Positions 30,506 through 59,740 of a stretch of 64,000 nucleotides of DNA are shown here, piece by piece. Position 1 is the stretch's first letter. Every line of letters starts with the position of its first letter. This stretch comes from Streptomyces sp. NBC_01264 (lineage in GTDB: Bacteria; Actinomycetota; Actinomycetes; Streptomycetales; Streptomycetaceae), in the NCBI RefSeq assembly GCF_026340675.1, contig NZ_JAPEOX010000001.1, forward strand, positions 1 to 64,000, written 5' to 3'. A program made the position numbers and the translations under genes. The notes beneath the pieces were generated by a model that saw only the letters and a program-made list of their open reading frames with translations, did no database searches and had not been told where the DNA came from.

Positions 30506-30630
30506 CAGGCGACGTGAAGGTCACCTTGATCATCGGAGCCTCGTTACGTCCGGGACTGCCACAGCGAAGGTTCGTCACACCCCCGTGACCTGCCGCTTCT
30601 CCCAACGGCCAGGACTATGAATTAGCCCTG
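30496..30630 (+). repeat. 135-bp copy of an ISAs1-type end (direct repeat 1)
   Basis: Matches 33336-33470 with only a few differences (about 97%). It ends with the IS terminus palindrome (...ATGAATTAGCCCTG). Together the two copies bracket the acyltransferase gene and a full IS element. Confidence 0.85.
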
Positions 30631-32163: not shown

Positions 32164-33348
32164 TCATGCTGCATCGCAGGTCAGGGGCAGTCCGAGGAGG
32201 TCGAGTGGGCGGGTGAAGGGCTTGTAGGAGACCTCTCGGAGTCCGGCGGCGATGTTGTGGTGGCCGGCGTCCCGGAGGATGTTGATCGCGAAGTTTCGTA
32301 GCGTGGCCATGTTGGCGGGGCCGTGTCCGGTCCGGATCCTGGAGGCGTCCTCCGCGAATGTGGTGTCCCGGACGTGGTGGACGGCCTCGATGCCCCACTG
32401 AGCCCTGGCGATACGGCTGATGAGCTGCGGTGATGCCTCGGACGAGGTCATGTCGGTGATGGCGTGGACGGTCTGTCGGGTGACCTTGCCGGTCTTGAGG
32501 TCTGTGCGGTGCCGCAGGATCTTTGCTGCCTGGACGACGTGGGGCAAGTCCAGGCCGAGGCCGGTAACGGTGAGCGTGCGGACCGAGCGGGTCTCGCGCC
32601 GGCCGTGCCCGGCCTGGCGGTCGTAGCGGCGAGCGGTGACTTCCTTCCACGGCAGAGCTCTGACGGCAGCGTGGAGTTTGGGCTGGTTGCCCTTGACGAC
32701 CATCAGGTAGTGGGCGTTCTTCTCCTCCACCAGCCATTTCGCGTGCTCGCGCTGGGTGTGCAGCGCGTCGGCGGTCACTACTGTGCCGGTCAGGTCGAAC
32801 GGCGCGAGCAGCGCGGTGAAGCCGGTGATCTCGTTCGTCCTGTCCGGCACCCGGAGCTGGCTGACGGTGCGGCCGGCAGCCGTGACCGCGGACAGGAGGT
32901 GCGCGGCCGGGGTGGTGTCGGTGCGCGAGCCGCGGGCACTTTTGCCGTCCACCGCCACCGATTCCGTGCCGGCCAGGCCGTGACCGAGAAGGTCGGCGAG
33001 CCCGCCGGGACACACCTGAACCAACACCCGCCGCACGGTCGAACCCGACGCCGCCCGCCGTAACCCGAGGGGCCCGCGCGCGTGAAACCCCAGGCCGGAA
33101 AGCGTGTCCTGCGGCGCGTGACGGGCCCACTGCCCGATCGCCAGATAGGAACGGGCACCGGCCAGGACCGCGCACGCGGCTGTCAGAAACACCGAGGCCA
33201 GGGTATGACGCCGTCCCCGCCGCTCACGCGGATCGGGCACGACGGCCAGTCGGGCCGCCACCTCGGGAAGCTCACGGTATTCACGCGAGGGCGACTTGAT
33301 CAGACAGACGGTGGCAGACTGGCGACACATCGAGGCTCCGGTGGTCAC
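32164..33348 (-). CDS. ISAs1-family transposase (second type)
   Basis: 394 residues: LAVVPDPRERRGRRHTLASV (associated N-terminal domain), SVAVDGKSARGSR (Asp), VVTADALHTQREHAKW (Asp), HYLMVVKGNQP and WGIEAVHHVRDTTFAEDASR (Glu). Clearly the same family as the 10566-11822 product but a different element. Start ATG 33348; ATG 33330 also possible. The gene appears intact. Its stop is 24 bp from the left IS end. Confidence 0.9.
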   Translation of the reverse strand: MTTGASMCRQSATVCLIKSPSREYRELPEVAARLAVVPDPRERRGRRHTLASVFLTAACAVLAGARSYLAIGQWARHAPQDTLSGLGFHARGPLGLRRAASGSTVRRVLVQVCPGGLADLLGHGLAGTESVAVDGKSARGSRTDTTPAAHLLSAVTAAGRTVSQLRVPDRTNEITGFTALLAPFDLTGTVVTADALHTQREHAKWLVEEKNAHYLMVVKGNQPKLHAAVRALPWKEVTARRYDRQAGHGRRETRSVRTLTVTGLGLDLPHVVQAAKILRHRTDLKTGKVTRQTVHAITDMTSSEASPQLISRIARAQWGIEAVHHVRDTTFAEDASRIRTGHGPANMATLRNFAINILRDAGHHNIAAGLREVSYKPFTRPLDLLGLPLTCDAA

Positions 33349-33470
33349 GCGACGTGAAGGTCACCTTGATCATCGGAGCCTCGTTACGTCCGGGACTGCC
33401 ACAGCGAAGGTTCGTCACACCCCCGTGACCTGCAGCTTCTCCCAACGGCCAGGGCTATGAATTAGCCCTG
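33336..33470 (+). repeat. 135-bp ISAs1-type end (direct repeat 2)
   Basis: The right terminal part of the IS at 32140-33470, repeated at 30496-30630 in the same orientation. Confidence 0.85.
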
Positions 33471-33488
33471 GGGGCGTGTCCCAGGAGG

Positions 33489-33679
33489 CCGCACGGTGGG
33501 CCGCGTGCTTTTTGGCCCGGTGCGCGCCGAAGGCGCAGGGCCAAAAACCCTGCCCCGGAACGGGGCAGGGCGGTCCGCGAAGCGGACTGAATTGCCGGTG
33601 AACGCGCCCGAAGGGCGCCCGGCAATTCACCCGCAGGGCCCGCCAGGGCCCGGAGGGCGGCACGCGGCCCACCGTGTGG
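33489..33679. repeat. nested palindrome cluster with GAA loops
   Basis: An outer 19-bp inverted repeat (33489-33507 with 33661-33679, one mismatch) encloses five stems: TTTTTGGCCC/GGGCCAAAAA (33509-33547) with inner GCGCC-GAA-GGCGC; CCCTGCCCCG-GAA-CGGGGCAGGG (33548-33570); GTCCGC-GAA-GCGGAC (33573-33587); TGAATTGCCGG/CCGGCAATTCA (33588-33629) with inner GCGCCC-GAA-GGGCGC; and GGGCCC twice (33636-33651). No gene fits. Four stems share the 3-base loop GAA (TTC on the other strand), similar in style to Streptomyces telomere hairpins, but its role is unknown. Confidence 0.9.
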
Positions 33680-33820
33680 CAGCCGTGGGCCACGCCCCCA
33701 GAAAAGCCCCGTCCACCGGCCCGCACGCGGTCTTGCAGTCCCTGCTGCGCACCGGTCCGGGACGGCCGGTTTTCGTCTGCATCCGCAGCGGGGGCGCCGC
33801 CGAGACGACCTGCTCCGGCG

Positions 33821-58269: not shown

Positions 58270-59740
58270 TACGGTAGATGTCAAGCCAAATGAGATGTTC
58301 GTGTCGCTATGAGGCTTTTTGTTCGGGTTCGCTTCTTTTGGCCGGGTCGTTGATCCAGACCATGCCGGGTATCTCGGGTGGCCGTGGCCGTCGGGCGAAG
58401 CGTTCGGGGTGGCGCTCGAATGGCTCGGCCAAGGTGACGGCCCGCTGGTCACGGACCTCCTCGGCGGTGCCGAAGTGGGCCGAGGCAGGGGTGTGCAGGC
58501 CGCTCCCGGAGTGTCTGTGATCGTGGTTTTAGTACGCGATGAAGGCGTCCATCCACTCCCGTGCGTGCGCCAGGGAGTCGAACCGTTCGGGATAGTCGGC
58601 GGAGTACTTCGTGGTGCGGAACTGGCTCTCGGAGAAGGGGTTGCCATTGCTGACCTTGGGGCGGGAGTGACTCCTGGTGACACCGAGGTCGATCAGCAGC
58701 TGAGAGACCTTCTTGCTGGTCATCGAGGTGCCGCGATCCGCATGCGCGGTCTCGGGGACGATGCCGTTGCGGTCGATGGTCTCGCGGATCAACTCCTCTG
58801 CCCGCTCGGCGGTTTCGGCTACTTCGACGGTGTGGCCAACGATGTAACGGCTGTAGATGTCGATGATCACGTAGGCGTGGTACCAGATCCCCTTCTCCGG
58901 CCCGGGCAGGCGGGTGATGTCCCAGGTGACGACCCTGCGAGGGTCCGGTGGCGAGAAGTTCGGGCACGGTCTTGGCGGGGTGGGTGGCCTGGCGATGACG
59001 CTCTCCGCTCTGACCGGCTGCCTCGAGGATGCGATACATGGTGCGGCTCGAGCAGTGGTAGCGGCCCTCGTCCAGCTCGCGGGCCCAGATCTGCGTGGGC
59101 GGCAGCTCCGCGTAGCGCGGGGAGTCCATCCCCGCGAGGATCGCCTCGCGCTCTGTCCCGCTCTGCGCGCAGACCGGTGCCGGTCGCGCCTCACGCACGG
59201 TGGGCCGCGGGTGGAGACGACGGTGGTGGGTGGCCCGGGACCGGCCGGTCAGCCGGCAGGCCGCCACCGCCCCAACCAGCGGAGTCAACTCCCCCGTGGA
59301 GATGTCGAGATGCTCCTCGACCTCTTCGTTCAGTCCGCGCTCTCGGCAAGCAGTTCCAAGAGCGCGACCCCTTTTCCCATGACCTCCAGGGCGGCGTCCC
59401 TCTTCGCCAGTTCCCTCTCCAGGCGCTCGAGCCGCTTCCGCAGCTTCTCCACCTCGGCCTCGGCCAGGGACTTCTTCGACCGCACCGCGCTGGTCCGCTT
59501 GTCGGTCAGGTTCTCCAGCCCGCCGGCGTCCCTGGCCTGGCGCCACTCGATGACGTGGGAGTGGTACAGGCGCTCACGGCGCAGGATCGCGCCCTTCTCC
59601 CCCGGCCGGGGCCGCGTCGTACTCGGCCACGATCCGCAGCTTGTACTCCGGGGCGAACGAACGACGCCTCGGCTTCGCCGCAGGCTCTATCGCGGGGGAC
59701 TTCTTGCTGGCCATAGGGGGTGATGCTCCTGTCTCGCCCT
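58270..59740 (-). pseudogene. IS3-family element with several inactivating lesions
   Basis: OrfA (about 59341-59714: KSPAIEPAAKPRRRSFAPEY, KLRIVAEYDAAP, later KKSLAEAEVEKLRKRLERLE) has a frameshift near 59600. OrfB (58320-59350) starts NEEVEEHLDISTGELTPLVG and RYAELPPTQIWARELDEGRY, shifts frame near 58945 before VVTWDITRLPGPEKG (Asp) and AHADRGTSMTSKK (Asp), then has TAA at about 58530 instead of Tyr after MDAFIAY, and ends NDPAKRSEPEQKAS. Clearly dead. Exact ends not determined. Confidence 0.75.

Follow-up and report, generated by a model that had tools for sequence, protein, structure and literature searches.

A five-hairpin element conserved in Streptomyces mobile DNA and its possible role as a single-stranded DNA signal at plasmid entry

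A five-hairpin element and its copies

The window (the whole 64,000-nucleotide stretch that we analysed) comes from the very start (first 64 kb) of a 7.0-Mb contig in the 10.7-Mb genome of Streptomyces sp. NBC_01264. It holds a long imperfect stem enclosing five hairpins, with a transposase-like open reading frame (ORF) to one side (Table 1). A first-pass annotation had placed a nested hairpin cluster at 33489..33679; the cluster proved real but these limits too narrow, as the closing stem continues to CTGGGGGCGTG/CACGCCCCCAG and the element spans 33468–33701. All five stems could be read from the sequence where that annotation had put them, four with the GAA loops it had described (33524–33536, 33548–33570, 33573–33587 and 33604–33618) and the fifth (33636–33651) with the loop GCCA. 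Its 19-bp outer repeat (33489–33507 with 33661–33679) pairs throughout except at one of its 19 positions, which is a G.T on the plus strand. ORFs are listed across the element, yet 12 related loci match in the element alone (with a short flank in one), so that, as far as seen, no gene fits the stretch, as had been stated. Folding was far beyond chance both for RNA (33480–33690; minimum free energy −168.4 kcal/mol, z −10.5) and for DNA (33471–33698; −113.7 kcal/mol, z −12.2), with 0 of 200 shuffles as good in either case. The fold is beyond chance in evolution too, since full-length relatives carry compensatory stem changes. The short form of hairpin 2 was seen, among aligned copies, only in the window copy and in its nearest relative, L005.

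Table 1 Features of the element and its flanks in the window.
Feature	Position	Strand	Basis
Whole element, plus-strand fold	33468..33701	+	Sequence, folding, aligned homologs
P1, left arm of the long closing stem	33468..33508	+	Sequence, DNA folding
Hairpin 1, B type, CGGTGCGCG bulge motif, loop GAA	33509..33547	+	Palindrome and loop scoring
Hairpin 2, plain stem, loop GAA closed by G-C	33548..33570	+	Homolog alignment, palindrome and loop scoring
Hairpin 3, loop GAA (in relatives GTCA, CTTG or CTCG)	33573..33587	+	Loop comparison
Hairpin 4, A type, CGGTGAACGCG bulge motif, loop GAA	33588..33629	+	Palindrome and loop scoring
Hairpin 5, loop GCCA (in relatives GCTA or CCCG)	33630..33657	+	Loop comparison
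P1, right arm of the closing stem	33658..33701	+	Sequence, DNA folding
Flank common to the window copy and its nearest relative (L086/L005)	33702..33794	+	Match over 33471–33794 at 90%; other relatives end by 33713
Transposase-like ORF (ISAs1 in the first-pass annotation), on the side where intact copies have the downstream gene	32164..33348	-	ORF list

By sequence comparison, the window cluster is one copy of a 219–245-bp element family conserved in Streptomyces mobile DNA. The 34 copies compared belong to Streptomycetaceae and lie on linear conjugative plasmids, on circular MobF plasmids and in a few prophage-like loci. Searching across genomes returned full-length relatives, including one further copy in the same genome, on a plasmid-like, related (blastn) contig of 35 kb (C10). 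Strong blastn matches (E ≤ 1e-30, own genome included) were found in 5 of 295 genus genomes and 8 of 394 family genomes, two draws that overlap, and weaker matches were mostly short pieces. Four PLSDB plasmids matched the window element, and a divergent copy used as query matched 16 plasmid records, three of them among those four. Further copies were added by a pattern scan of genomes, while a covariance model (R1) found elements in 3 of 150 genomes, all already known from blastn. Three queries gave no match in the INPHARED phages. With the window stretch as query, Rfam returned nothing at E ≤ 1; for 13 related loci it gave eight matches, all below the gathering score, the best being Acido-Lenti-1 in one stretch of L008 (E 0.004; 30.6 bits vs 37). 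No description of the element was found in the accessible portion of the literature searched, a coverage that mostly excludes subscription journals.

A dispersed intergenic repeat was rejected as the A-type hairpin pattern occurs just twice in the 10.7-Mb genome, both times within elements. An origin as a MITE was also set aside: relatives have only the element in common, yet mostly in the same placement upstream of a gene.

The tests on 34 elements leave out the partial elements L009, L030, L090, L107, L108/L133, L123/L136 and L134 as well as single-hairpin matches, mostly from Rhodobacterales. The covariation set of 32 elements is without L042 and L047, and a set of 31 is also without L046. 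Two identical copies in the G484 plasmid, and contigs recurring between genome sets, were counted once. The single hairpin CGGTGCGCGCCGNAGGCGCAGG occurs in Rhodobacterales and relatives (L050–L056, L059, L062, L065, L067, L071, L073–L075, L078, L080 and L082); with whole elements, blastn gives only short matches to the Rhodobacterales single-hairpin loci.

Strand preference of the fold

Covariation was extensive, with more than one Watson–Crick pair type at 49 pair positions (helix pairs and helix-flanking positions; 32 elements, four clades). In hairpin 4, for example, the gene strand runs through the compensatory series AATTGCCGG/AATCGCCGG/AATCGGCGG/AGTCCCGG, and the partners match. We derived helices with Watson–Crick pairs only, by which both strands are treated nearly equally, and then classed the mismatches. 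Among 1x1 helix mismatches of the 34 elements, G.T on the plus strand accounted for 46 cells in 21 contexts, A.C for 8 cells in 2 contexts and other mismatches for 82 cells. Against the G.T share of 0.43 expected from composition, this gave p = 1.4e-6 for contexts and 2e-4 for hand-merged positions (15 vs 2), values that ignore the kinship of the copies and are thus optimistic. Aligned paired columns gave 14 G.T versus 5 A.C (32 elements), and a hand count gave 11 versus 1 in the hairpins alone; the excess shrank in P1 (about 7 versus 6) and with finer clades in which type I copies (see below) were split further (31 elements; 13 versus 6, p 0.17). No matching mutation bias was found, with A/G 24 and C/T 11 in unpaired columns and C/T 208 and A/G 197 in flanks. 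As unpaired columns and flanks are thus free of a C/T excess, the asymmetry most likely reflects pairing on the plus strand. Folding energy favours the plus strand in 27 of 34 elements whether computed for DNA, with all seven exceptions in type III, or for RNA.

Apical loops on the plus strand were mostly of the forms c(GNA)g, c(GNNA)g (GCCA, GCTA, GTCA) and g(CNNG)c (CTTG, CTCG, CCCG), and they swap among these classes between relatives. Exceptions were cAAAg in L008, gGAAc in L001 and L005, and tGCAg in L005, while no clean short-loop stem was seen for hairpin 2 of L042 or L047, nor for hairpin 1 of L047. Motifs of the c(GNA)g, c(GNNA)g and g(CNNG)c classes are said, in work by Nakano et al. 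of 2002 (cited in PMC9969394) and Yoshizawa et al. of 1997 (cited and discussed in PMC6479982), to be exceptionally stable in DNA. Automatic scoring of 237 perfect palindromes, a total that includes chance P1-arm palindromes and alternative registers for L042 and L007, placed 164 in the three DNA classes, 2 as GNA with another closing pair and 71 in none. On the minus strand, read as RNA, hairpins 1–4 mostly have UNCG or GNRA loops and hairpin 5 has UGGC, UAGC or CGGG, which to our knowledge are not among the stable RNA loops. The G.T mismatches on the plus strand and the DNA-stabilising plus-strand loops together identify the folding strand as the template strand of the downstream gene, which lies on the minus-strand side of the window.

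These results bear on the folded RNA that the first-pass annotation had offered as one possibility. Our initial reading was of a cis-regulatory RNA with a ligand- or protein-sensing fold, in which the downstream mRNA begins with the minus-strand copy as its 5′ leader. This would suit the place of the start codon, which follows the end of the element by 24–30 nt in all but two of the 18 type I copies, and the many minus-strand loops that are C(UNCG)G or GNRA, with UUCG/GCAA swaps; however, the wobble mismatches lie on the opposite strand, the hairpin 5 loops do not fit and no Rfam family reached the cut-off. We dropped the minus-strand leader on the covariation and the asymmetry of G.T and A.C mismatches, and now regard it as unlikely. 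What is left of the RNA proposal is a plus-strand non-coding RNA, read divergently from the gene. Both the G.T asymmetry and the RNA folding energy favour that strand, but the loops GCCA, GTCA and GNA fit stability classes of DNA and not of RNA (an assignment made partly from general knowledge), the element is placed ahead of a minus-strand gene, and four scanned loci held no sigma-70-like site on either strand, a weak test confined to this class of site, in which shuffles, too, are expected to give about none. We consider such a transcript quite unlikely.

Gene contexts, orientation and the transferred strand

Three types of gene context recurred, and those outside them were single cases. Type I copies lie on linear plasmids (two complete, 51 and 60 kb), on contigs of up to 56 kb and, in G054, 2.6 kb from a chromosome end. 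A co-directional operon pointing towards the replicon end encodes an AAA_10 ATPase with weak TcpF similarity, a CHAP/NlpC-like protein (an assignment below cut-off) and a protein whose annotation reads type IV secretory conjugative transfer; this type IV secretion system (T4SS) operon is followed by the element, a zinc-ribbon-like protein and two further small genes. The linear plasmid NZ_CP109237 (L045, L139) carries the T4SS operon, and its gene table, which is incomplete, lists no relaxase.

Type II comprises prophage-like loci, with terminase and portal genes in L077 and L099 and the same small genes in L066; the element lies 93–167 bp ahead of a small gene, for which both loci tested, L066 and L099, gave a match to phrog_33636. 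The type III element stands before genes for a 393-aa protein, an adenylate-kinase-like protein and an HTH protein; this arrangement is found on some linear plasmids and on circular ones, among them pSHJG2, the record of which begins inside the element. PADLOC matched the second and third of these proteins (mad8, E 4e-7; mad1, E 4e-11). The 393-aa protein (L105:11417–12598) had no family match at cut-off, and its predicted model bears at most a weak HIT/GalT-like resemblance, none at E ≤ 0.001; it has at least 78 homologs, other actinobacteria among them. For one homolog of this downstream protein, the source gives the name ‘ParA family’. NCBIfam and PADLOC supplied no name for any first-gene product tested.

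The element usually precedes a gene. Of the 18 type I copies, 16 have a start codon with a ribosome-site-like motif 24–30 bp past the element, and in one of these (L008) the ORF is out of frame with its family; the two exceptions are L005 and the window copy. In 11 of the 18, and in 13 of the 34 elements overall, the element is preceded at no more than 14 nt by the end of a terminator-like hairpin with a T-rich tail, although a stricter scan found a site in only one of two type I loci. Lying so near, this hairpin leaves little room for an ordinary promoter, and if it does terminate, the promoter of the gene should sit inside the element. On the G484 plasmid, the two identical copies stand one ahead of each of two genes.

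The window copy is 96% identical to that of L005, with which it also shares a flank (Table 1). No type I gene was found near it, and the second small type I gene had one weak match in the window, far off (58613–58816, E 2e-4). Near-identical sequence flanks the transposase ORF region at 30560–30620 and 33411–33465. The window copy is probably an inactive orphan that has lost its gene, and is best seen as the remnant of a plasmid end in the chromosome arm.

Position relative to replicon ends, which the first-pass annotation had proposed to examine, proved informative. All 17 type I copies that lie near an end of their contig or replicon, 0.6–5.4 kb inside it, have the plus strand pointing inward; this set comprises type I copies within 6 kb of an end, without the window copy, the G054 left arm and L046, and most of its draft-contig ends are not proven telomeres (the G167 copy lies mid-way in a 3.2-kb contig). 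Copies reading outward from the nearest end were those of the linear type III plasmids NZ_CP109402 and NZ_CP099469 and the partial copy of NZ_CP133228. On linear type I plasmids, the folded strand is the one that is 5′-ended at the near terminus.

On circular plasmids, the orientation could be compared with that of the relaxase gene, which typically lies in the lagging region according to the accessible text of PMC11541004. The gene following the element and mobF were on the same strand in all seven circular plasmids with both listed (NZ_CP109180, NZ_CP108570, CP003277, NZ_CP109353, NZ_CP108972, NZ_CP109036 and NZ_CP109138), a count in which the two S. longwoodensis plasmids are near-copies, the mobF of NZ_CP109138 is more distant and CP003722 is left out as a duplicate of CP003277. 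Two circular plasmids with partial elements, NZ_CP109236 and NZ_CP109386, stand outside the seven, with no mobF among the best 60 of 467 matches listed. In each of the five plasmids compared, the gap upstream of mobF contains a conserved inverted-repeat block (L137:31794–32699 and the homologous gaps of L140–L143), a candidate oriT of Streptomyces MobF plasmids. With the nicking geometry of F and R388 used to assign the transferred strand (T-strand), the shared strand of mobF and gene, the oriT-like block and the lagging-region relaxase make the folded strand the predicted T-strand.

The first-pass annotation had also raised an internalised telomere and a transfer or replication origin. The resemblance to Streptomyces telomeres is real: the palindromes are packed, type I copies are subterminal and GAA is, with GGA and GTA, among the commonest streptomycete telomere loops in the part of PMC8743542 that was available. 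The element differs in that it is internal instead of terminal, occurs also on circular plasmids and has one long enclosing stem. Its polarity is opposite too, since telomere hairpins fold in the 3′ overhang (PMC4513846, as far as its text was accessible) and the GNA loops of the element are on the strand 5′-ended at the near terminus. In NZ_CP109237, telomere-like palindromes occupy both ends, those at the left end lying about 2 kb further out than the element. These end palindromes (L045:1–180 and L139:43010–43189) mostly have TTC loops on the 5′ strand. A link to transfer did hold up, given the adjoining T4SS operon, the strand and the orientation, but as a leader element before a gene instead of an oriT, for which the block upstream of mobF is a separate candidate. 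An internalised telomere or an oriT is thus highly improbable.

A double-stranded DNA site is a further alternative, acting by cruciform extrusion or by binding a regulator, partition or replication factor, independently of conjugative entry; a template-strand hairpin might then act as at the promoters of phage N4. That prophage-like loci also carry the element favours a cruciform or a more general single-stranded DNA role. Invariant, repeated CGGTG(AA)CGCG bulges resemble a recognition motif, C-G closed loops with 5′G and 3′A drive extrusion at N4 promoters (PMC4496689, available part), and such a site would be in keeping with the ‘ParA family’ homolog and with a gene of the replication-relaxation family that lies some 3 kb from the NZ_CP099469 copy. 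However, among the genes listed in annotated loci no Rep or partition gene lies directly beside the element, and such a site would explain neither why copies near replicon ends point inward nor why the strand agrees with that of the relaxase. We view this alternative as unlikely.

A possible role at plasmid entry and known systems

We propose that the element is a single-stranded DNA signal, a promoter and/or priming site, that folds on the template strand of the downstream gene at plasmid entry, a function to which we assign about an even chance. A conjugative plasmid would enter the recipient as one strand, or the strand would otherwise be exposed or extruded; the exposed plus strand would fold into the long stem and five very stable hairpins; the folded element would recruit RNA polymerase and/or primase; and the adjacent gene would be expressed, or complementary-strand synthesis would begin, before the DNA is double-stranded. 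We infer here that linear plasmids enter as single strands and that the element acts as promoter or priming site, as well as which kinds of protein take part, and end-first entry of linear type I plasmids as a single strand is our assumption. The proposal draws on the template-strand fold directly before a gene, its duplication before two genes and its resemblance to the Frpo1/Frpo2 design.

Several observations tell against it. L066, L077 and L099 lie in prophage-like DNA, which is expected to enter double-stranded, and the linear type III and partial copies named above face outward. The G.T excess weakens with finer clades and in P1, the DNA energy exceptions gather in type III, and the UNCG and GNRA loops of hairpins 1–4 on the minus strand mean that an RNA is not an absurd idea. 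In addition, the stricter terminator scan was positive in only one of two loci, the type I plasmid viewed whole has no relaxase listed (PLSDB gene tables being incomplete), and the element is without the promoter boxes of Frpo (see below). More tentatively, and with some doubt, the family may be a class of GC-rich single-stranded DNA promoters or primers with five hyperstable DNA hairpins, independent of −10 and −35 boxes, that switches on the entry genes of actinobacterial linear and circular plasmids, the linear ones entering end-first as single strands.

The element bears on how linear Streptomyces plasmids enter a recipient and on which genes come first there, and a conserved, strand-specific element beside a T4SS operon makes both questions testable. 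The entry signal that we propose predicts the strand, which end leads the way in and which genes are made first, and the element directs attention to unnamed gene families as candidates for entry or establishment factors.

Among known systems, single-strand origins of rolling-circle (RCR) plasmids, such as pIJ101 sti, are strand-specific hairpins needed in single-stranded form. The element shares the strand-specific hairpins but differs in its hosts, which are large linear or circular plasmids with T4SS or MobF genes and no RCR Rep noted alongside.

Closer likeness is found in the Frpo/ssi elements of F and ColIb-P9, of which Frpo1 and Frpo2 of F are described as promoters on entering single-stranded DNA in the accessible part of PMC9849209. 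In common are repeated copies on one plasmid and a strand-specific stable fold, which in the element is on what is the template strand by position and the predicted T-strand; Frpo lies directly ahead of entry-region genes, and the element lies upstream of genes in what would be the leading region. Frpo, however, rebuilds canonical −10 and −35 boxes, whereas the element consists of five GNA-type hairpins in a long GC-rich stem; none of the 34 elements has TANNNT or TTGAC on its gene strand. In the early promoters of N4, used by its virion RNA polymerase, C-G closed loops with 5′G and 3′A stabilise a template-strand hairpin, as set out in the portion of PMC4496689 available. The element likewise has c(GNA)g hairpins on the template strand, but N4 promoters are short single hairpins served by a phage polymerase, whereas the element is multi-hairpin, about 230 nt long and mostly on plasmids. 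By analogy, and if our inference is right, the element would work like the Frpo and N4 hairpins.
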